Shown: positions 26,558 through 44,489 of the stretch, piece by piece | How the letters are laid out: each line of letters begins with the position of its first letter | How positions within the stretch are numbered: the first letter of the stretch is position 1 | Assembly (NCBI GenBank): GCA_026393895.1 | Contig: JAPKZG010000034.1 | Location: 1-47,738 of the forward strand | Direction of reading: 5' to 3' | DNA length: 47,738 nt | From: Candidatus Aminicenantota bacterium | GTDB taxonomy: Bacteria; Acidobacteriota; Aminicenantia; Aminicenantales; UBA4085 | Notes under the pieces: model-generated | Database searches by the model: none | Seen by the model: only the letters and a program-made list of their open reading frames with translations | Told to the model about the DNA's origin: nothing | Made by a program: the position numbers and the translations under genes

Positions 26558-27080
26558 GCGTTTCGAGATACGCTTTTCGAACGCTCAGAAAAAACGGAAT
26601 ATGATCCTCGGTCCGAAAATCCGGGTACGTCCATTCCAGGCGCTTGACCCCGGTCTTAGCGAACAATAATTCGAGGTGGGCGTAGATCCCCTTTTGGAGG
26701 GGCGGCCGATGGGAAAATTCCTTGGTCGTCGCCATGAAAAGGGCCGAAGAAGTCAGAATCCCGGGGTCAAGGTTGACCGCCCTCCCTTTCGTTCCGAAGA
26801 CCGCCCGGAGTTCGTCCTCCAGGGTGTTGGTTTCGATTTTAATTTCGGGCAACCGCTCCGGGGCGATCGGGTCCCGAAAAGAGACGAAGCCGCGCCTCAG
26901 GCCGGCGCCCATCTCGGCCTTATAATAATCCGTCCCGGCGAACGGGACGCGCGGTCCACGGCTCTCTATCGGGCCGTAAAGTCCGGCCAATCGCCTTTCG
27001 GCTTCTTCCGCGTGCTCTTCCCTGCCGGCAATGATCCCGCAAATCAGTTTGGCCGGAACGAACGGCCGGATGTCCGCCAT
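26541..27080 (-). CDS. DUF4416 family protein
   Basis: A 179-aa protein matching the uncharacterised DUF4416 family. The N-terminus PAKLICGIIAGREEH, then GPIESRGPRVPFAGTDYYKAEMG, LPEIKIETNTLEDEL, VNLDPGILTSSALFMATTKE and a C-terminal WTYPDFRTEDHIPFFLSVRKAYLE are the blocks I recognise. No transmembrane segment or known catalytic motif is obvious; conserved Asp, Lys and His residues hint at an enzyme. A longer frame reaches 27161, but ATG 27080 is strongly favoured: a TTGAAA-17-TATCGT promoter ends seven bases before it. It is divergent from asnS and convergent with the homocysteine methyltransferase. Confidence 0.78.
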   Translation of the reverse strand: MADIRPFVPAKLICGIIAGREEHAEEAERRLAGLYGPIESRGPRVPFAGTDYYKAEMGAGLRRGFVSFRDPIAPERLPEIKIETNTLEDELRAVFGTKGRAVNLDPGILTSSALFMATTKEFSHRPPLQKGIYAHLELLFAKTGVKRLEWTYPDFRTEDHIPFFLSVRKAYLETLKPPR

Positions 27081-27087
27081 GTTCGGT

Positions 27088-27116
27088 ACGATAGGCGAAA
27101 CCTCTTTCGATTTCAA
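27088..27116 (-). promoter_or_regulatory. Sigma70-like promoter for the DUF4416 gene
   Basis: On the minus strand TTGAAA (27116-27111), 17 bases, TATCGT (27093-27088), and seven bases to ATG 27080. The predicted start site is one base before the codon, so the mRNA would be leaderless. It also settles the start codon of the gene. Confidence 0.6.
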
Positions 27117-27125
27117 GCCGTTCCA

Positions 27126-27154
27126 TTGATTTTCCGGGATCGATCTCCTATAAT
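27126..27154 (+). promoter_or_regulatory. Promoter of the asnS-rimO-pgpA operon
   Basis: TTGATT (27126-27131), 17 bases, and a perfect TATAAT (27149-27154). The start site near 27161 leaves a leader of about 22 bases with AAAGGA before ATG 27183, and rules out the ATG at 27153. It stands back to back with the DUF4416 promoter, nine bases between the two -35 elements. Confidence 0.65.
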
Positions 27155-27182
27155 GAAACAAATTTTCAAAGGATTTTCCGTC

Positions 27183-28445
27183 ATGAAATGGGTTTACATC
27201 GAAGATCTTGCCTCGTCCCAGGACCGGGATGTCGAAATCCGGGGTTGGGTTTACAACACCCGGTCGAGCGGCCGGATCAGGTTCATCCTCGTTCGCGACG
27301 GAACCGGCCTCGTCCAGGCTACGATTTTCAGCAAGGACGACAACGACCCCCTGTTTGAGAAATTCGATTCCCTGACGCAGGAATCATCGCTGATTGTCCG
27401 CGGCCGCGTCCGCGAGGACAAGCGCGCTCCCGGCGGCTATGAGCTCGGCGTTTCCGAGATCGAAATCCTTCAAATCGCCAAGGATTATCCGATCACACCG
27501 AAGGAGCACTCCACGCCGTTCTTGATGGAACACCGCCACCTCTGGCTCCGTTCACGCAAACAGCACGCCGTGCTTCAAGTCCGGGCCGAGGTCGTCCGGG
27601 CGATCCGCAACTTCTTCGACGACCGCGGCTTCCGGCTGATGGACACTCCGATTCTGACGCCCAGCGCTTGTGAAGGGACGACGACGCTGTTTGAAACGAA
27701 ATATTTCGACCAGATGGCCTACCTCAGCCAGAGCGGCCAGCTCTACAACGAAGCCACCGCCGCCGCCTTCGGCAAGGTCTATTGTTTCGGCCCGGCCTTC
27801 CGGGCGGAGAAATCCAAAACCCGCCGCCACTTGATCGAGTTCTGGATGGTCGAACCCGAGGTGGCCTTTGCCACTTTGGAAGATACGATCGAACTCGGCC
27901 AGGACCTGGTCATGTTCATTCTCGACCGGGTGATTTCCAAACGGCGGGCGGACCTGGCGGAGCTCGAACGGGACGTCGCCAAGCTTGAGGCGATCTCCAA
28001 GCCGTTTCCCCGGTTGACCTACGACGAGGCCGTGCCGCGTCTTCAGGAAAAAGGATCGGAAATCCAATATGGCGACGATTTCGGTGCGCCCGAGGAAACC
28101 ATCATCTCCGAGCTTTATTCGAGCCCGGTTTGTGTTACGCATTTCCCGGCGAAAATCAAGGCCTTCTATATGCAGCCGGACGAGAAAAGACCGGACCTGG
28201 CCCTGGGCGTGGATTTTCTTGCCTCGGAAGGATACGGGGAAATCATCGGAGGCGGTCAGCGCATCCATGATCCCGCCCTCCTCGAACAAAGAATCAAGGC
28301 AATCGGGCTTCCGCCCGAACCCTATCAATGGTACATCGATCTGAGAAAGTACGGTTCCTTCCCACATGCCGGATTCGGCCTCGGGGTGGAGCGGGTCGTT
28401 GCCTGGATTTGCGGCATCAAGCACATTGTTGTACAGGATCTACCC
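27183..28445 (+). CDS. asnS: Asparaginyl-tRNA synthetase with damaged C-terminus, read into rimO
   Basis: A class IIb aminoacyl-tRNA synthetase charging tRNA-Asn. An OB-fold anticodon-binding domain (VEIRGWVYNTRSSGRIRFIL) comes first. Motif 1 (RGFRLMDTPILTPSACEG), motif 2 (FRAEKSKTRRHLIEFWMVEP, with AsnRS-type EFW) and motif 3 (GFGLGVERVVAWICG) follow. The expected ending after GIKHI, of the type RETIPFPRxLYRIYP, is missing. Instead the frame runs on without a stop through rimO to 29768. Just past HI, the next frame reads LYRIYP and stop (28429-28449), so about 26 nt seem to have been lost; restoring them gives 430 aa, a normal AsnRS length. Start ATG 27183 follows a promoter and AAAGGA. Whether the lesion is real or an assembly error is open. 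Confidence 0.82.
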
Positions 28446-28449
28446 CTGA
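28428..28449 (+). other. asnS/rimO junction: remnant of the asnS 3' end and overlapping CTGA
   Basis: After the codon for Ile (28425-28427) a single G remains. TTG TAC AGG ATC TAC CCC TGA (28429-28449) then encodes LYRIYP-stop one base out of the asnS frame. The TGA overlaps CTG (28446-28448), which is in the rimO frame, giving CTGA where other genes in this operon have ATGA. Confidence 0.75.
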
Positions 28450-29768
28450 AAAAGCCCGGCCGCACGGCCATCATCAATTTCGGCTGTGCGAAAAACCTGG
28501 TCGACAGCGAAGTGATGGCCGGCTATCTTCTCGCGGCCGGGTATGAAATCGTCCCTGACGCCGCCCGGGCCGACGTCGTCATTCTCAACACCTGCGGCTT
28601 CATCCGGCCGTCACGGGACGAGGCCGACGAGGGTATCCGGGAAGCGATCGCGTTTAAGGCCGGGAGGGGTTCCGTCCGCGTCGTCGTCACCGGCTGTTAC
28701 GCGGAAAAAGAAAAATCTTCCCTTAAGGAACGTTTTCCCGAGGTCGACGCCTGGCTGGGCGTCAAGGATTACGATCAAATCGTCCTGGCCGTCGAAAATC
28801 GGGTTTACCGTCCGGGCGGCCGGACCTTTCTCTACGATCATCTTTCGCCGCGGGCGTTGTCGACGCCGCCGGGTTGGGCGTACCTCAAGGTTTCCGAGGG
28901 ATGCTCGCACGAATGCGCGTTCTGCTCGATTCCGTCGATCAAGGGCCGATACCGGTCCCGGTCGGTTTCCTCGATTGTCGCCGAGGCGCGTTCGCTGGAG
29001 GAGAGGGGCGTCAAGGAAATCGTGCTGATCTCCCAAGATACGACGTATTATGGGCGCGATCGCGGCGCGCGGGACGGTTTCCCCCGTCTGTTGGGGGAAC
29101 TTCTGAAACGGACCGGCCTTCCTTGGATACGGTTCCTTTACGGATATCCCGGGGAAATCACCGATCCTCTTCTCGAGGTGATGGCCGATCCCCGTGTCTG
29201 TCCCTATTTCGACATTCCCTTCCAGCATGCCGCTCCTTCCGTCCTAAGCAAAATGAAACGGGCTATGCCCGGGCCGCAGGCCTTGCGTCTCCTGGAAAAG
29301 ATCCGGAAGCGTCTTCCCGAAGTCGCGATCCGAACTTCGTTGATCGTCGGATTTCCTGGAGAAAGCCGGTCCGAATTCGGACTGCTTGCGAAATTCGTCA
29401 AGGAGGCGCGTTTCGATCACCTGGGTGTATTCGCCTACTGCCGGGAGAAGGGAACCGCGGCGGATATTTTAGGAGATCCCGTTCCGGACGCCGAGAAGGA
29501 ACGGCGGCGGAATGTTCTCATGGAAGAACAGGCCGTCCTCTCGGCCGAAAAACTCAAAGCGTTGCGTGGCCGGACGCTCGATGTGTTATATGAAGCGACA
29601 CGGCCGGATCATCCCGGAGAATTCGTCGGACGGACCCGGTTCCAGGCGCCGGACGTTGACGGCGTCGTCTTCGTCCGGGCGACCGGGGCGGCATGGAAAA
29701 GCCCGCTGCGCCGTGTTAAAATCATTTCGACGGATATGTACGATCTCCGCGGAATTCTTGTAACATGA
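28446..29768 (+). CDS. rimO: Ribosomal protein S12 methylthiotransferase RimO
   Basis: A radical-SAM methylthiotransferase that modifies an Asp of ribosomal protein S12. Numbered from CTG 28446, the N-terminal UPF0004 domain has the auxiliary cluster cysteines C14 (INFGCAKNLVDSE), C50 (LNTCGFI) and C84 (VTGCYAE). The radical-SAM cluster is C153-x3-C157-x2-C160 in EGCSHECAFC, and a TRAM domain ends the protein. FGCAKNLVDSE is the RimO-specific version of this motif. The 440 aa match E. coli RimO. There is no ATG, GTG or TTG between the asnS damage and C14, so it is made either from a CTG start, overlapping the old asnS stop, or as the C-terminal half of a fusion starting at 27183. The stop overlaps pgpA (ATGA). 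Confidence 0.9.
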   Translation: MKKPGRTAIINFGCAKNLVDSEVMAGYLLAAGYEIVPDAARADVVILNTCGFIRPSRDEADEGIREAIAFKAGRGSVRVVVTGCYAEKEKSSLKERFPEVDAWLGVKDYDQIVLAVENRVYRPGGRTFLYDHLSPRALSTPPGWAYLKVSEGCSHECAFCSIPSIKGRYRSRSVSSIVAEARSLEERGVKEIVLISQDTTYYGRDRGARDGFPRLLGELLKRTGLPWIRFLYGYPGEITDPLLEVMADPRVCPYFDIPFQHAAPSVLSKMKRAMPGPQALRLLEKIRKRLPEVAIRTSLIVGFPGESRSEFGLLAKFVKEARFDHLGVFAYCREKGTAADILGDPVPDAEKERRRNVLMEEQAVLSAEKLKALRGRTLDVLYEATRPDHPGEFVGRTRFQAPDVDGVVFVRATGAAWKSPLRRVKIISTDMYDLRGILVT

Positions 29769-36531: not shown

Positions 36532-37881
36532 ATGAATTTGAGAAGCGTGGGGAGGCGGAGCGTCGCCGCGGCGGCGGCTGTGGGCGTTTTAGCCGTTTTT
36601 CTCCCGGCGCAGACGTCGTTTTTTTCCGGCCTCACCCATTACACTCTTAAAAACGGGCTGACCGTCATTTTTCACGAGCATTTTGACCTTCCCGTCGTCT
36701 CCGTGGCCGTCGGATACAACGCCGGTTCGATCCACGAAATGCCCGGCAAGACCGGGGTAGCCTACCTGCTCGAAAAGCTCATGATGTTCGCCGGATCGGC
36801 CAATGTTTCTCCGTTGGAGCACATCTCCTCCATCAACCGCATTGGCGGCACGCTGAACGCCAACGCCCTTGAGGACCAGACCTTGTATTATCAGACGATT
36901 CCATCCAATCATCTGGCCCTCGCCCTCTGGCTCGAATCCGACCGGATGCGGACCCTCGACCTTTCCGAAGAAAAATTCGAAAAAGCCCGGTCCGACCTCC
37001 TTGAGGAGCTGCGGAATCGGAGGACCTCCGAACCTTTTCTCAACAGCCTTCAAACGTTCGATCAGCTCCTCTATTCCGATTTCTCTTTCGGTCATTCCCT
37101 TCTCGGCGACGAGAACGATATCCGCAATCTCACCCTGGAGGACGTCAAGGCGTTTTACGACGCCCGTTACGTCCCCCAAAACGCCGTTCTCTGCATCTCC
37201 GGACAGTTCAATAAAACCCGGGCCCAGGAGTTGGTCGCCCGGTATTTTGAGTCGCTGCCGGGCGTCAAACCTCCGGCCGTGACGTTCGAAACCCCGGTCT
37301 TTCCAAAGACCCCCTTCTCCCGGACCACGGAAGACCCTCTGGCTTCGGCCCCGGCCGTCTTCCTGGGATTCCGGCTCTCCGCGCCCGGCGCGCCGGATTC
37401 GGCCATCCTGACCCTTCTGGATTTCATCTTGATGAAGGGCCGGAGCGCCCGGCTCAACCGGCGCCTATTGAACCGCGAGGCGAAAATCGCGTTTCAGTTG
37501 TCCGGTGGGATCGATCGTCGCTTCAACCGCACCGTTTACAAAATTTTCATCATCGCCAGTCTGCCGCAGATTTCCGCCTGCCTGGACGCGGTTTTCTCCG
37601 AATTGGACAAGATCAAGCGGACATTCCTGAGCGAAACCGAGATCGCCAAAGCCAAGACGCTCTACCGTCAGGATCTTTTCAATCGCACGGCCACTTCCGC
37701 CGACTGGGCGATCTTTTTAATCCAATCGTTCAGGGCCCTTCAGTCGACGGGGCGAACGCTGGACGACCTCGTTCGGGAATCCGACCGGATTTTGAAAGTT
37801 ACGCCTTCCGATATCGTCGCGATCGCGAATCGATACTTCACTCTCGACAACTGCGTCGTCCTCCAGGTTCGGATGAAATAG
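36532..37881 (+). CDS. M16-family peptidase homolog, catalytic motif degenerate
   Basis: A 449-aa exported protein with a signal-like N-terminus (VAAAAAVGVLAVFLPAQ) and the two-lobed M16 insulinase-like fold: YTLKNGLTVIFHEHFDLPVV, then AGSIHEMPGKTGVAYLLEKL. At the place of the zinc motif HxxEH the sequence reads YLLEK (78-82), so both metal-binding His are replaced, although the downstream SDLLEELRNRR helix with its Glu is kept. Hydrolytic activity is therefore unlikely. The second lobe (RSARLNRRLLNREAKIAFQL) resembles the catalytic-subunit branch. It is followed three bases later by a second M16 protein, as in two-component M16 systems. Confidence 0.82.
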   Translation: MNLRSVGRRSVAAAAAVGVLAVFLPAQTSFFSGLTHYTLKNGLTVIFHEHFDLPVVSVAVGYNAGSIHEMPGKTGVAYLLEKLMMFAGSANVSPLEHISSINRIGGTLNANALEDQTLYYQTIPSNHLALALWLESDRMRTLDLSEEKFEKARSDLLEELRNRRTSEPFLNSLQTFDQLLYSDFSFGHSLLGDENDIRNLTLEDVKAFYDARYVPQNAVLCISGQFNKTRAQELVARYFESLPGVKPPAVTFETPVFPKTPFSRTTEDPLASAPAVFLGFRLSAPGAPDSAILTLLDFILMKGRSARLNRRLLNREAKIAFQLSGGIDRRFNRTVYKIFIIASLPQISACLDAVFSELDKIKRTFLSETEIAKAKTLYRQDLFNRTATSADWAIFLIQSFRALQSTGRTLDDLVRESDRILKVTPSDIVAIANRYFTLDNCVVLQVRMK

Positions 37882-37884
37882 ACG

Positions 37885-39324
37885 ATGAATAAACGGCGGA
37901 CTTGGGCGGCCCTGTGTTTGGCGGTCGCCGTATGCGCCGCCTCCGCCCCGGGGCAGGAGCGTTTTCGTCAGAAGATTCCCGCGCCGGATCCCCAGCCGGA
38001 ATTCCGCTTGCCCCGTCTCGAATCGATCACCCTGTCCAACGGCCTTCGGATGACCGTGGTTTTCCGGGAATCGGCGCCCATGACGAGTCTCCATCTGATT
38101 TTTTCCTGCGGGGAACAGGCGTCTCCGGAGAAAACGCCCGGGCTGGCGACCCTGGCGGCCGTGACCTTCGGCCAGGGCACACAGCTTCATTCCGCCGCCG
38201 AAATCGAAGAACGTATCGAGAGCATCGGCGGCTCCTTCGCCGTTTCGGCCGACCAGGACGTCATCCTGCTCGGGTTTCATTTCCTGGAGGAACACCTCGA
38301 CGAAGCTCTGGATCTCATCGCCGAAATGATCCTCCTGCCGCTCATCGGGGACCGTGAAATCAAAATCGTCCAGTCGATGGTGAGTTCCGAGATGACTGCC
38401 GAGGAACGCGACCCCTCTTTTTTGGCCCATCGGTTTCTGGGCGGGTTTCTGTTCCAGGGGCACCCTTACGGAAAATTCGCCTTCGGACGGAGCGGCATTA
38501 AAACATGGACCCCGCGCGATCTCCTCGAATTTTGGGACCGGTATATCCGGCCGAACAACGCCCAAATCGTGTTGACGGGGAGCGTCAACATCAACACGGC
38601 GTCGCGCAAAATATCGCATGTCCTCAACACCTGGAGACCCCGAGACGTAACCCCCGTTCCCCTTCCGCCGCCCCGGCCGCCGGATCGCACCCGGATTTGT
38701 TTTATCGATCTTCCCCAGGCCAGTCAATGCACGATCTGCGCCGGAACGGTTCTTCCGCCGCTTGTTCCGGGAGAACGGTTCGCCCTGATGGCCCTAGGTC
38801 AATTGCTCGGGGGCTCGATCAATTCCCGTTTGTTCTTGAACCTTCGCGAATCGAAGGGATACGCTTATGAAACGTACAGTCGCCCCGAATTTTACCGGGC
38901 CGGCGGGGCGTTCACCGTTCGCGCGGTCGTCCGGCCAGAAGTCGTGGCCGCCTCCGTCCGGGAAATCTTCTCCGAAATCCGGCGTCTGACCCGGGAACCG
39001 GTGTCCCTTGACGAAATCGGGGCGGCAAAATTCATTCTGATGGGCGGATTTCCCATTCAGCTCGATCGTTATGACAATTTCTCGGGATACGTCGCGGCGA
39101 TGAAGGCAGCCGGGGCCGGGGAAGAACTCTGGAGCCGGTTCCCGGAAAACATGCTGGAGGTCGATTCCGACCGCATTCTCCAGACCGCCCAAAAATACCT
39201 GAGCCAGCCGTTCGTCGTGGTCATCGCCGGTTCGGGCAAGCTCTGCCGGGACGGATTGGCCGAATTCGACGAGGTCGAAATATTCGACGCCCGGGGCCAA
39301 CTTCTGGAAACGATTAAAAAGTGA
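37885..39324 (+). CDS. M16-family peptidase homolog, non-catalytic subunit type
   Basis: A 479-aa protein, probably exported (LAVAVCAASAPGQ). It has an M16 N-terminal lobe (ESITLSNGLRMTVVFRESAP, EKTPGLATLAAVTFGQGT) that lacks any HxxEH, and a C-terminal lobe with LNLRESKGYAYETYSRPEFY, the RxxxxxY segment that binds substrate in partner subunits. In known two-subunit M16 peptidases one subunit supplies zinc and the other this Arg/Tyr pair. Here the partner upstream has also lost its zinc ligands. It is co-transcribed with that gene and lies seven bases before FTCD. Confidence 0.85.
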   Translation: MNKRRTWAALCLAVAVCAASAPGQERFRQKIPAPDPQPEFRLPRLESITLSNGLRMTVVFRESAPMTSLHLIFSCGEQASPEKTPGLATLAAVTFGQGTQLHSAAEIEERIESIGGSFAVSADQDVILLGFHFLEEHLDEALDLIAEMILLPLIGDREIKIVQSMVSSEMTAEERDPSFLAHRFLGGFLFQGHPYGKFAFGRSGIKTWTPRDLLEFWDRYIRPNNAQIVLTGSVNINTASRKISHVLNTWRPRDVTPVPLPPPRPPDRTRICFIDLPQASQCTICAGTVLPPLVPGERFALMALGQLLGGSINSRLFLNLRESKGYAYETYSRPEFYRAGGAFTVRAVVRPEVVAASVREIFSEIRRLTREPVSLDEIGAAKFILMGGFPIQLDRYDNFSGYVAAMKAAGAGEELWSRFPENMLEVDSDRILQTAQKYLSQPFVVVIAGSGKLCRDGLAEFDEVEIFDARGQLLETIKK

Positions 39325-39331
39325 GGAGAGA

Positions 39332-41011
39332 ATGATGAAGTTAGTGGAATGCGTCCCGAATTTCAGTGAGGGACGGGACAAGACGAAAATCTCGGCCATC
39401 ACCCGCGAGATCGAAACGGTTCCCGGAATCAAGCTCCTCGACGTGGACCCCGGCGAGTCGACCAACCGGACCGTCGTAACGTTCATCGGAACGCCGGAGG
39501 CGGCCGCCGAGGCGGCCTTCCGCGCGATCCGGAAGGCCGCCGAAGTCATCGACATGCGCCTCCATAAGGGCGCGCACAGCCGCATCGGCGCAACCGACGT
39601 CTGTCCGTTCGTCCCCCTGTCCGGGGTGACGATGGAGGAATGCGTCGCCCTGGCCCGAGAACTCGGCGCCCGGGTGGCCGCGGAACTCGGCCTCCCCGTC
39701 TATTTTTATGAGGAAGCGGCCACGCGGCCCGAGCGGCGCAACCTGGCCGCCGTCCGACAGGGCGAATACGAGGGCTTGGCGGAAAAGCTCAAGGACCCGG
39801 CCTGGGCGCCCGATTGCGGCGAAGCCGTTTTCCTTCCGTCTACCGGTGCGACGATCATCGGCGCGCGGGAGTTTTTGATCGCTTACAACGTCAACCTCAA
39901 CACGCGTGACCGGAAACTGGCCTCCGAGATCGCCTTGAACATCCGGGAAAGCGGCCGGGTGAAGCGCGATAAAAAGGGCGAAATCATCCGGGACGCAAGC
40001 GGGGTTTCGGTCAAGGTCCCCGGGCGTTTTTCCCATATCAAGGCCGTGGGGTGGTACATCGAGGATTACCAACGGGCTCAAATTTCGATCAATTTCACCA
40101 ATTACAAGGTTACGCCGGTTCACGTCGTTTTTGACGATGTCCGGGCTCAGGCGGCGGCGATGGGGCTCCGGGTCACCGGAAGCGAATTGGTCGGCTTGAT
40201 TCCTAAAGAAGCGCTACTTCAGGCCGGCCGGTATTATCTCGAACGCCAGGGAAAAAGCTCCGGCGTTCCGGAAGCGGAGCTCCTCCGGGTTGCCGTCCTC
40301 TCCCTCGGGTTGAGCGACGTCGTTCCGTTCGATCCGGCGAAAAAAATCATCGAATATCAGGTCACCGAAGGGGACGTCCGATTGGTCAGAATGGATCTGC
40401 GGGCGTTCGCCGACGAGTTGTCGATGGAGTCCCCCGCCCCCGGTGGAGGAAGCGTGGCCGCTTACTGCGGCGCCCTTTCGGCCGGACTCTCGTCCATGGT
40501 CGCCAACCTGACGGTCGGTAAAAAAGGGTATGAAAAATCCTGGAGTGAAATGAACCGCCTGGCGACGTCGGCCCAAACCCTGAAAGACGCTTTTCTCCGG
40601 TATGTCGATCTGGACACGGCCGCCTTCAACAAGGTCATGGACGCCCACCGTCTCCCCAAAGCGACGGAAGACCAGGCCCGCCTCCAGGAAATCGCTTTGG
40701 AAGAAGCGACGCGGGAGGCCACCCGGATTCCCTTTGAAGTCCTGAAGAACTGCCTCGCCCTCCTGGAATTGGCCGAAACGGCGGCGAAAAAAGGCAACCG
40801 CAACTCCCTGAGCGACGCAGGCATGGCCGCCTTGGCCGCCCAGGCGGCGGCTTGCGGCGCCTCCTATAACGTTCGCATCAATTTGCCCGGCTTGAAGGAC
40901 GAGACTTATAAAAAATCCATGGCCGCCGAAGCCATGGATTTGCAGCGACAGGTCCGACGTCTCGCCGAGGCCGTCCACAAAAAAATTGAAAAAGAACTTG
41001 AACAGATGTAA
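39332..41011 (+). CDS. ftcD: Fused glutamate formimidoyltransferase / formiminotetrahydrofolate cyclodeaminase
   Basis: A 559-aa bifunctional enzyme that moves the formimino group from formiminoglutamate (histidine breakdown) to THF and then releases ammonia to give methenyl-THF. The transferase half starts KLVECVPNFSEGRD and has the catalytic His82 in LHKGAHSRIGATDVCPF. The cyclodeaminase half starts near residue 360 with LRAFADELSMESPAPGGGSV and includes TDQ-like and NRNSLSDAGMAALAA blocks. The vertebrate enzyme has the same order and a similar length of 541 aa. GGAGAGA precedes ATG 39332. No hutH, hutU or hutI is present. It implies that histidine is used as a source of one-carbon units, consistent with the peptidases around it. 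Confidence 0.93.
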   Translation: MMKLVECVPNFSEGRDKTKISAITREIETVPGIKLLDVDPGESTNRTVVTFIGTPEAAAEAAFRAIRKAAEVIDMRLHKGAHSRIGATDVCPFVPLSGVTMEECVALARELGARVAAELGLPVYFYEEAATRPERRNLAAVRQGEYEGLAEKLKDPAWAPDCGEAVFLPSTGATIIGAREFLIAYNVNLNTRDRKLASEIALNIRESGRVKRDKKGEIIRDASGVSVKVPGRFSHIKAVGWYIEDYQRAQISINFTNYKVTPVHVVFDDVRAQAAAMGLRVTGSELVGLIPKEALLQAGRYYLERQGKSSGVPEAELLRVAVLSLGLSDVVPFDPAKKIIEYQVTEGDVRLVRMDLRAFADELSMESPAPGGGSVAAYCGALSAGLSSMVANLTVGKKGYEKSWSEMNRLATSAQTLKDAFLRYVDLDTAAFNKVMDAHRLPKATEDQARLQEIALEEATREATRIPFEVLKNCLALLELAETAAKKGNRNSLSDAGMAALAAQAAACGASYNVRINLPGLKDETYKKSMAAEAMDLQRQVRRLAEAVHKKIEKELEQM

Positions 41012-41964: not shown

Positions 41965-42762
41965 CTATTTTCTCCTTACGATAAATAAAATTCCAAAAAT
42001 CAGAAAGGCGACGAGAACGATCGTCCCCGAGGCCGGCCAATCCAGAACATATGCGGCGCCCAGGCCGAGGATGACCGACAGGGCGGCGACTATCCCGGCG
42101 CCGATGACCGCCGCTTTGAAACGGGAAGCGGTCTGCAACCCCGCCGCCGCCGGTATCACCAACAGCGCGGCGACCAGGAGGATGCCGACGATCTTCATAC
42201 CCAGGACGATAGTCAAAGCGGTCAGGACGGTGATCAACGCGTCCAGCCGGCGGACGGGGACGCCCGCGGCCAGGGCGGCGTCACGGTCGAACGTCATATA
42301 CATGAACCGATGATAGAAAATCAGCGTAACGGCCAGAACCGCGGCGGCCAAAACGACGGATAGAACGACCTCGGCGGGCTCGATGGCCAGGATGTCGCCG
42401 AAGAGGTAACCGAGCAAGGCGGCGTTAAACCGCCCGGAGACAGAGGCCAGAATGACCCCAAGGGCCAACCCGAGACTGCTCAGGATGGCGATGGCCGTGT
42501 CGCCGTAGATACCCGCCGCTTCCTTGAGCTTCATGATTCCCAGAGCGGCCGCGACGGACACGACGAGAGCGACGGCCGTCGGCCATTGGCCGAGGAGCAG
42601 ACCGAGGGCGATCCCGGCGAAAGCGACATGGGAAAGCCCGTGCCCGATCATCGCATCTTTCCGCAACAGGAGAAACACGCCCAGCACGGCGCAGGCCAGG
42701 GCGATGCACAATCCCGCCCCCAGGGCCCGTTGTAAAAACGCGTATTGAAAGAAGGCGTGCAT
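41965..42762 (-). CDS. znuB: Zinc ABC transporter permease
   Basis: A 265-aa ABC-3 family permease with about eight membrane segments. Visible marks include RALGAGLCIALACAVLGVFL, KDAMIGHGLSHVAFAGIALG, the cytoplasmic-loop FDRDAALAAGVPVRRLD used to contact the ATPase, and VGILLVAALLVIPAAAG. It is the last gene of the znuA-znuC-znuB operon and starts 16 bases after the znuC stop. Metal specificity follows from the binding protein, which looks like a zinc type. It is convergent with the GGDEF gene. Confidence 0.88.
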   Translation of the reverse strand: MHAFFQYAFLQRALGAGLCIALACAVLGVFLLLRKDAMIGHGLSHVAFAGIALGLLLGQWPTAVALVVSVAAALGIMKLKEAAGIYGDTAIAILSSLGLALGVILASVSGRFNAALLGYLFGDILAIEPAEVVLSVVLAAAVLAVTLIFYHRFMYMTFDRDAALAAGVPVRRLDALITVLTALTIVLGMKIVGILLVAALLVIPAAAGLQTASRFKAAVIGAGIVAALSVILGLGAAYVLDWPASGTIVLVAFLIFGILFIVRRK

Positions 42763-42778
42763 GGCGCGATGATCGTTT

Positions 42779-43540
42779 TTAATGATGGTGCGAGACGAGA
42801 TGATGGCCCCCGGCCAACATGTCCTTCAAGGCTCCCGAGGAGCAGAAATGATCGTGCGTTCCATGATAAATCAACCTTTGATTGAGGCACGCGACCTTGG
42901 TGATGTGTTTGTTGACGATGCCGATGTCGTGAGTCACCAGAACGATCGTGATCCCCTCGGTCGTATGGAGAGACGCCAGGAGGTCATAGAACCGGTCCTG
43001 CGTTTCCGCGTCGACCCCCGTCGTCGGTTCATCTAAAAACAGGAGTCGCGGTTTTTGAACGATGGCCCGGGCGATGAAGACGCGCTGCTGCTGGCCTCCT
43101 GACAACCGACCGATCCGCCGGTCCTTGAAATCCGCCATATCGACGATCTCCAAGGCGTGGAGAATCGCCGCTTCTTCCTCCGCCCGGGCGATCCGGCGCC
43201 GGCTGGACCGGACGGCCATGGCGACCACCTCCCGGACCGACGCCGGGAATATGGGATCGAAATGAGTCGCCTGTTGGGGAACATATCCGATCATCCCGCG
43301 TTCGGCGAATTCTTCGATGGGCCGGCCCAGAATAGTTACACGCCCGCGGTCGGGTCGGGTGAGGCCCAGGATGATCCGGAGGAGCGTCGTTTTTCCCGAG
43401 CCGTTGGGCCCGAGAATCGCCAGGAAATCGCCCCCCGAAATCGTCAGGGAAACGTCGGAAAGGACGGGAATACCGCCATAAGAGAAAGAAACTCCCTCGA
43501 CACGGATCAATTCTCCCGTTTCAGTTCCCGGCGAAGCCAT
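42779..43540 (-). CDS. znuC: Zinc ABC transporter ATP-binding protein
   Basis: A 253-aa ABC ATPase. Walker A is GPNGSGKTT, the Q-loop lies in GYVPQQATHFDPIFPASVRE, the signature is LSGGQQQR, Walker B is LLFLDEPTTGVD, and the H-loop is LVTHD. VREVVAMA and the C-terminal HHLVSHHH tail are typical of the ZnuC/MntB group. ATG 43540 lies inside the end of znuA with a 20-base overlap, indicating translational coupling. It energises uptake through ZnuB at the inner membrane. Confidence 0.9.
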   Translation of the reverse strand: MASPGTETGELIRVEGVSFSYGGIPVLSDVSLTISGGDFLAILGPNGSGKTTLLRIILGLTRPDRGRVTILGRPIEEFAERGMIGYVPQQATHFDPIFPASVREVVAMAVRSSRRRIARAEEEAAILHALEIVDMADFKDRRIGRLSGGQQQRVFIARAIVQKPRLLFLDEPTTGVDAETQDRFYDLLASLHTTEGITIVLVTHDIGIVNKHITKVACLNQRLIYHGTHDHFCSSGALKDMLAGGHHLVSHHH

Positions 43541-44477
43541 GTTTTAAATTCTCCAGGTTTTCTTCCATCAGGCGGAAAAAAGTCACGCCCCGGGCCGTCT
43601 GCTCCGGATTGAGATTGTGGCCGGGGAAGAGAATCCGGACGTCGGCCCCGATTTCAGCGGCGATCAGCCGGGCCATCTTGTCGCCCGCGGCCGGTTCATA
43701 AAATACGGTTTTCACCCCGCTGGCCTTCGCCCGGGAGATGATCTCCACCATTTCCCTGGGCGTCGGTGCGGCGTCGGGACTCAATCCGTAGACAGCGACC
43801 TGTTTGATCCCGTAACGCCGGGCCAGGTAGGCGAAGGCCGCGTGGCCGGCGACGAAAAATTCCTTTCCGCGAAATTTTTCGAGGTCGGCGCGGAAAGACG
43901 CATCCAAGGCCCGCAGGCGCTCTTTCAAGACGTCCGCGTTGCGGGAAAACAACCCGGCCCCGTCGGGGGCTATTCGCGAAAGCGCGCAGGCAAGGGCGTC
44001 CACGATTGCCTCGTCCTGGCCGAAATCCAACCAGACGTGGGGATCGAATCCTTCGTGGCCGTGGGAGCGGCCGGCCGCGGAGGTGTGTTCGTCCCCGTTC
44101 GTGGCGATCAAGTCCAGGCCGAGGGCGGCTTCCAACCTCGATGTTTTTTTAACGGCCATCCCTTTGATCAGCGAGTCCAGCCAGGGCTCCAGTCCCAGGC
44201 CGATGGAAACCAGGAGGTCGGCCGCTTCGAGCTTGCGGATATCACTGATCCGGGGTTGCCACGTATGGACGTCGATTCCGGGAGGCAGAAGCAAAACGAT
44301 CTCACCACGGTCGCCGATGATTTCCCGGGCAAACTCGGCCAGGGGAAACACGGTCGCCACGACTTTGATCTTGTCTCCGGCCGCTCGGGTAGGCGACGGC
44401 GACGAAGCGGAGGCGTTTACGGGAAAAAACGAGAAGGAAACAATAAGAAGGAACGATGAAAACCTAAGGCGATTCAT
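43521..44477 (-). CDS. znuA: Zinc ABC transporter substrate-binding protein
   Basis: A 318-aa cluster A-I periplasmic binding protein with a classic signal peptide (RFSSFLLIVSFSFFPVNASA). Likely metal ligands are H71 (GIDVHTWQP), H147 (FDPHVWLD), H212 (VAGHAAFAY) and E261 (VFYEPAAGD); three His plus an acidic residue is the zinc pattern rather than the manganese one. A short His-containing loop (DEHTSAAGRSHGHEG) is where ZnuA proteins carry their His-rich stretch. ATG 44477 is preferred over ATG 44486 because the consensus promoter would start transcription near 44483. It heads the znuA-znuC-znuB operon. Confidence 0.9.
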   Translation of the reverse strand: MNRLRFSSFLLIVSFSFFPVNASASSPSPTRAAGDKIKVVATVFPLAEFAREIIGDRGEIVLLLPPGIDVHTWQPRISDIRKLEAADLLVSIGLGLEPWLDSLIKGMAVKKTSRLEAALGLDLIATNGDEHTSAAGRSHGHEGFDPHVWLDFGQDEAIVDALACALSRIAPDGAGLFSRNADVLKERLRALDASFRADLEKFRGKEFFVAGHAAFAYLARRYGIKQVAVYGLSPDAAPTPREMVEIISRAKASGVKTVFYEPAAGDKMARLIAAEIGADVRILFPGHNLNPEQTARGVTFFRLMEENLENLKHGFAGN

Positions 44478-44489
44478 GGAAGCCATCAA

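Follow-up and report, generated by a model that had tools for sequence, protein, structure and literature searches.

An M16B protein pair of Candidatus Aminicenantes in which both subunits lack the zinc motif

The window (the whole stretch of 47,738 nucleotides that was analysed, from a Candidatus Aminicenantota genome) contains two adjacent genes encoding M16B proteins, hereafter A and B, neither of which carries the HxxEH zinc motif. We favour, with a probability of roughly 0.5, the interpretation that A and B would form an exported pseudopeptidase clamshell that lost its zinc motif once, in an ancestor, and that has been kept as a non-proteolytic complex holding peptides without cutting them. 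Two components of this interpretation are firmer: judging from the sequences, the pair is very probably not a zinc peptidase, and it is highly likely to be a working complex. That it holds peptides rather than serving purely as a scaffold is about an even call, inclined if anything to holding.

Subunit A, an M16B protein of the catalytic type without HxxEH (449 aa; positions 36532 to 37881, forward strand), was delineated from its open reading frame, Pfam matches, orthologues, tree and structural model, and subunit B, the non-catalytic M16B partner (479 aa; 37885 to 39324, forward strand), from its open reading frame, Pfam matches, adjacency to A and structural match to 3amj_B. Both expected domains scored above the curated Pfam cut-offs in each protein (PF00675 with 56.2 bits and PF05193 with 88.8 bits in A; 47.1 and 105.6 bits, respectively, in B), and A and B together constitute a full M16B pair. 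By sequence, the solved structures nearest to A belong to active subunits or to proteases (4nnz, E = 4.5e-38; 5euf, 2.6e-36; 3amj_C, 2.8e-32), and the inactive subunit 3amj_B (5.2e-19) is among those nearest to B. A 4-base overlap between A and B was found in 35 of 54 pairs; the start codons were chosen by a script in these counts, and the few large gaps are therefore unsure.

Both proteins begin with a signal-peptide-like segment, corresponding to residues 1-27 in A (36532 to 36612, forward strand; judged by eye, without a predictor) and residues 1-23 in B (37885 to 37953, forward strand; likewise read by eye), and hydrophobic N-terminal stretches were found again in A orthologues. Directly behind this segment in B, the alignment of B orthologues delimited the stretch QERFRQKIPAPDPQP (37954 to 37998, forward strand), which recurs in these orthologues in the form QE[RK]FR[RK]xPPxP. 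We rejected this QERFR-PP stretch as a new tail of B because a related linker, FDRSxxPxxGP, is present in fused catalytic M16 proteins, although a narrow text pattern for the stretch matched only 13 of 63 catalytic partners, some of these by chance because the pattern is loose.

The place of HxxEH in A is taken by YLLEK (Y78-L-L-E-K82; 36763 to 36777, forward strand), in which both zinc-binding histidines are absent, and B reads TPGLATLAAVTFGQGT at the same position, again without a zinc motif, as stated in the original prediction for both proteins. The A orthologues of 90 genomes likewise all lack HxxEH; intact motifs among relatives, which the original prediction had named as evidence that would speak against it, did not appear. 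Across these genomes, residue 78 is Y in 66, F in 11, H in 6, S, A and L in two each and Q in one; residue 81 is E in 64, Q in 24, and G and V in one each; residue 82 is N in 72, K in 7, H in 6, T in 2, and R, Y and G in one each. Histidine at both 78 and 82 was found in no genome of the 90. The commonest form of the former motif in the clade is [YF]-[LM]-[LM]-[EQ]-N, YLLEK being a local variant that recurs in two congeneric genomes (G001 and G002), with YLMEK in a third (G003); K82, together with one residue inserted directly after the motif, marks the genus of the window (EKLMM... versus ENLMF...; 36763 to 36785; L020, L023 and L026).

An A orthologue was recovered in 56 of the 59 related genomes searched, the other three (G011, G033 and G047) giving only weaker, paralogue-like matches, and B adjoins A in 55 of these 56 genomes; in the remaining one, A reaches the contig end. 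The 90 genomes mentioned above correspond to 88 of the 94 searched in the Candidatus Aminicenantes order plus two genomes of the class outside this order (G099 and G100). This count covers orthologues with readable motif columns from the related-genome search, the class search and further loci, and was obtained from 93 genomes by removing by hand G114, G062 and G047, as well as the second row of G099, all of them non-catalytic halves of fused proteins. The loci L089 to L097 stand outside the count, several of them being from the same genomes; one, L090 (JARYMI010000002.1), is titled "Clostridiales bacterium" and carries an Aminicenantes A-B locus, so that this genome is probably mislabelled. 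Among the order genomes with completeness of at least 90%, the gene was present in 48 of 49 (hand count), the exception being G033.

Both A and B are under purifying selection, with dN/dS values of 0.075-0.28 for A in nine of ten close pairs, the tenth being saturated, and of 0.04-0.32 for B in ten of ten. The source is a draft genome of 106 contigs, in which one might suspect a gene in decay or an error of sequencing or assembly, but the same loss in 90 of 90 orthologue genomes, with open frames throughout, and the purifying selection on both genes rule out these explanations, whose probability we consider negligible. As far as sequences can tell, the motif loss dates far back, is fixed in the lineage and is not peculiar to the source genome.

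The phylogenetic tree was computed from 98 of 200 rows after the five motif columns had been deleted. It sampled 59 of the 80 rows with HxxEH, together with 31 A and 8 B rows; the HxxEH proteins of the source genome from C64 and C74 were omitted, and the flagged long row from its C19 (L015) was kept. The 31 A rows grouped together as one clade with an SH-aLRT of 99, lying within the HxxEH family beside relatives from Acidobacteriota and Myxococcota, with G099 and G100 branching first, and the motif loss amounts to one label change on the tree. Outside the class, 65 genomes matched at 1e-100; 20 relatives retrieved from among the best of these matches all read HLFEH, and a B-like open reading frame was found in the retrieved stretch of 19 of them. 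Since the outside relatives keep both HLFEH and a B-like open reading frame, and A is nested in the HxxEH family, the ancestor was a normal catalytic pair; the grouping of all A proteins in one clade indicates that the zinc motif loss is single and ancestral in this Aminicenantes lineage. In the same tree, an HxxEH M16 protein (LAHLFEH) from L117 (JAPOYZ010000277.1), titled Candidatus Aminicenantes, grouped with Myxococcota, and its label or binning is doubtful.

The structure predictions proposed with the original prediction indicate that the M16 half-clamshell fold is intact in both A and B. A model of A alone, in which the former motif lies within helix 76-86, reached a pLDDT of 89.4 and matched 5euf_B (Z 46.0, rmsd 2.0, 412 aligned), the active subunit 3ami_A (Z 44.9, rmsd 2.1, 413 aligned) and 4nnz_A (Z 43.6). 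A joined A-B model, for which the TAG between A and B was read as Gln, reached a pLDDT of 84.1 and a pTM of 0.84, and matched presequence proteases with a whole-length TM of about 0.7; the underlying alignment included 12 fused catalytic homologues, which contributed part of the information on how the halves are arranged. The best structural match of the B half was the inactive subunit 3amj_B (Z 42.7, rmsd 1.8, 406 aligned), in agreement with the earlier view of B as the usual non-catalytic type.

Catalysis could in principle be rescued if another catalytic M16 subunit paired with B, or if A bound metal through other residues. The window does retain the general-base Glu position (E81), the distal zinc-ligand Glu position (E159; 37006 to 37008, forward strand, from the alignment of orthologues) and both members of the R/Y pair of B (R321 and Y328; 38845 to 38868, forward strand, from the alignment of B proteins). 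Residue 81 is moreover E or Q in 88 of the 90 genomes; drift at the former general base is thus not unconstrained, which might indicate an unrecognised chemistry. Five other M16 places were found in the genome, each with an HxxEH protein (HFIEH at C34, HFFEH at C19, HLLEH at C64, HVFEH in a fused protein of 929 aa at C61, and HVHEH at C74). The cell is thus not without M16 zinc proteins, but every one of the five has its own second M16 half, adjacent or fused, which leaves no orphan catalytic subunit for B; the proviso of the original prediction, that another gene might supply the zinc chemistry, finds no backing here. The positions conserved in the A clade include no new conserved set of His or Cys, and we rejected a new metal site in A on this ground. 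We also rejected H97 ("MQH"; 36820 to 36822, forward strand) as a new invariant ligand: it is His in 56 of 56 orthologues, two further orthologues having Q or N, but its counterpart in catalytic relatives is the His of "GEH/AEH", and 69% of the catalytic rows have His there. Finally, the distal position is Glu in only 34 of 56 A orthologues, and the Tyr of B has been lost repeatedly. We therefore consider such a rescue improbable. Judged by the motif alone, trace peptidase activity may persist, since in the experiments reported for PttP1/PttP2 in PMC8960859, each single Ala substitution among H, E, H, R and Y lowered activity, and it was the replacement of all five that abolished it.

The fate of the R/Y pair in B differs between its two residues. 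The Arg is invariant, both in the B clade (83 of 83) and in the partners or halves of HxxEH proteins (88 of 88), whereas the Tyr is present in 54 of 83 members of the clade versus 87 of 88 of these partners or halves (counted after discarding duplicates, short or low-scoring matches and rows gapped at these two columns). These counts are non-independent through relatedness, but a tree built from 53 B proteins has about nine changes at the Tyr position, which is still more than one event. It appears from these alignments that catalytic chemistry near the lost zinc site has relaxed in step, at the active-site Tyr of B.

Other parts of the chamber have been retained. In A, the GG-x-x-N-A edge strand is conserved (G105 and G106 in 100%, N109 in 87% and A110 in 90%), as is the helix WLESDRM, and further positions, for instance D177, Y/F298, G325 and F339, are conserved specifically in the A clade and little conserved in catalytic rows. 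We take this edge strand to be the one on which the substrate lies in M16 enzymes. The retention of this strand in A and of the invariant Arg in B makes us lean to peptide binding, although the conserved positions may equally serve folding.

The genes of the window are arranged in the order cinA, ligT, plsY, gpsA, TPR, metK (reverse strand), CBM9-like, A, B, FTCD, GGDEF, ZnuABC-type (reverse strand) and M20, metK being identified by its sequence and the Pfam match of its counterpart. The third gene of the A-B-FTCD order encodes a formiminotransferase-cyclodeaminase (39332 to 41011, forward strand; from Pfam and synteny). In 55 of 58 assessable genomes, among them G099 and G100, the next gene on the strand of B is FTCD, the exceptions being G031, G049 and G037; of the 87 genomes considered for this synteny, 28 had fewer than 600 bases beyond B and one had no B, and these were not assessable. 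By contrast, no FTCD was found downstream of HxxEH relatives in 73 loci, 50 of which had at least 3.5 kb downstream. The cyclodeaminase part is missing from FTCD in the scanned stretches of G015, G100 and G099 (L085, L198 and L199). Two hutH-like genes and one hutU gene are located elsewhere in the genome and not beside FTCD, so that FTCD does not point clearly to a role for A-B, and the A-B-FTCD order could be functional or merely inherited. We regard as doubtful the fuller proposal that A-B might correspond, in bacteria, to the bc1 core proteins, as an exported non-proteolytic M16B machine whose zinc site was remade as a conserved Y-x-x-[E/Q]-N and which gene order would tie to FTCD histidine/one-carbon metabolism across the class.

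The genes of a ZnuABC-type zinc importer (41965 to 44489, reverse strand; PF00950, PF00005 and PF01297) converge on A-B-FTCD, and similar genes occur in many related loci. We rejected this neighbour as a zinc link to A-B, the genes being convergent, on the other strand and accompanied by no further evidence. Two composite open reading frames were observed in passing. In the window, an apparent fusion of 1030 aa (26676 to 29768, forward strand) joins a class II tRNA synthetase (about residues 186-584) to methylthiotransferase-like UPF0004, Radical_SAM and TRAM domains (597-1029); in G007, an open reading frame of 977 aa upstream of A (L082, 3907 to 6837, forward strand) joins M28 and M19 peptidase domains.

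The main rival of peptide holding is scaffolding, in which A-B would be built as a structural component into a larger assembly of the membrane or envelope, like core I and core II of the mitochondrial bc1 complex. Eukaryotes offer a precedent, described in PMC12731061 and PMC11266112, in which neither of two M16B subunits has a working zinc site, and bovine core I, for which PMC12731061 gives YFVEH, likewise has Tyr in place of the first His; bc1 core I chains are also among the fold matches of A (Z about 39). However, no bc1 component gene was found among the flanking genes examined, and the R/Y-pair Arg is kept throughout the B clade, whereas the core proteins lack this pair according to PMC12731061. 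We consider scaffolding a rather unlikely explanation. One could alternatively propose that the inactive pair restrains the five HxxEH M16 proteins by binding peptides or the targets that it shares with them. The presence of these proteins in the same genome fits this idea, and inactive homologues regulating active relatives are a known theme in the account of PMC11266112, but no catalytic M16 gene is co-localised with A-B, and A and B are predicted to be expressed as their own pair, so that a role as decoy or regulator seems improbable.

Under the preferred reading, that of a peptide-holding pseudopeptidase, A and B would be exported to the periplasm by the signals recognised by eye and would form the usual M16B heterodimer clamshell, as their homologues do. 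The M16 chamber would then capture unfolded or peptide segments and hold them without cleavage, and the held segments would be protected or passed to another envelope factor. The original prediction of a non-proteolytic exported complex thus stands as regards the loss of M16 zinc-peptidase chemistry in both subunits, the export signals read by eye and the retained fold, while its two example roles, peptide binder and envelope assembly factor, stay candidates; the conserved A-B-FTCD order was not part of it. An order that keeps a double-inactive pair near-universally alongside other HxxEH M16 proteins would offer a dated and replicated example of a protease turned non-protease while both subunits were conserved together, and a natural experiment on the role of the M16 chamber once cleavage is lost. 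For annotation, the entries of this lineage named "insulinase family protein" that are of the A-B type (several hundred or more, at a guess) should probably not be counted as peptidases.

Among known systems, the nearest sequence relatives of A-B are the HLFEH M16B pairs of other Acidobacteriota, which have the same two-gene layout but keep HxxEH and are not beside FTCD in the loci examined. The bacterial M16B heterodimers SPH2681/SPH2682 and PA0371/PA0372 are likewise two-gene pairs with the same domains and a close fold, but their catalytic subunit carries HxxEH (from alignments to 4nnz and 3ami/3amj). YmfF/YmfH and PttP1/PttP2 resemble A-B in combining one catalytic-type subunit with one bearing the R/Y pair, as reported in PMC8960859, but are active zinc peptidases. 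Both B (52.4 bits) and A (23.3 bits) scored below the cut-off of 285 of the NCBIfam YfmF family NF047422. Section 9 of PMC12731061 presents two-subunit bacterial M16B systems as peptidases with one zinc subunit. No bacterial M16 pair in which neither subunit retains the zinc motif was found in the prokaryote section of that review or in the titles and abstracts searched, nor did we find literature on Aminicenantes M16 peptidases, which reflects the reach of the search and is not proof of absence. Pseudopeptidase M16 pairs are known from mitochondria. The bc1 core proteins, as treated in PMC12731061 and PMC11266112, are the one known case in which both M16B partners lack a working site: like A-B, core I and core II pair as M16B subunits of peptidase descent, with the zinc site absent or altered and the fold kept. 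They differ in being eukaryotic and built into bc1, whereas A-B is bacterial, carries N-terminal export signals (read by eye) and lies beside FTCD, and B retains the Arg of the R/Y pair. A-B would parallel the route by which relatives of the processing peptidase became bc1 core proteins.
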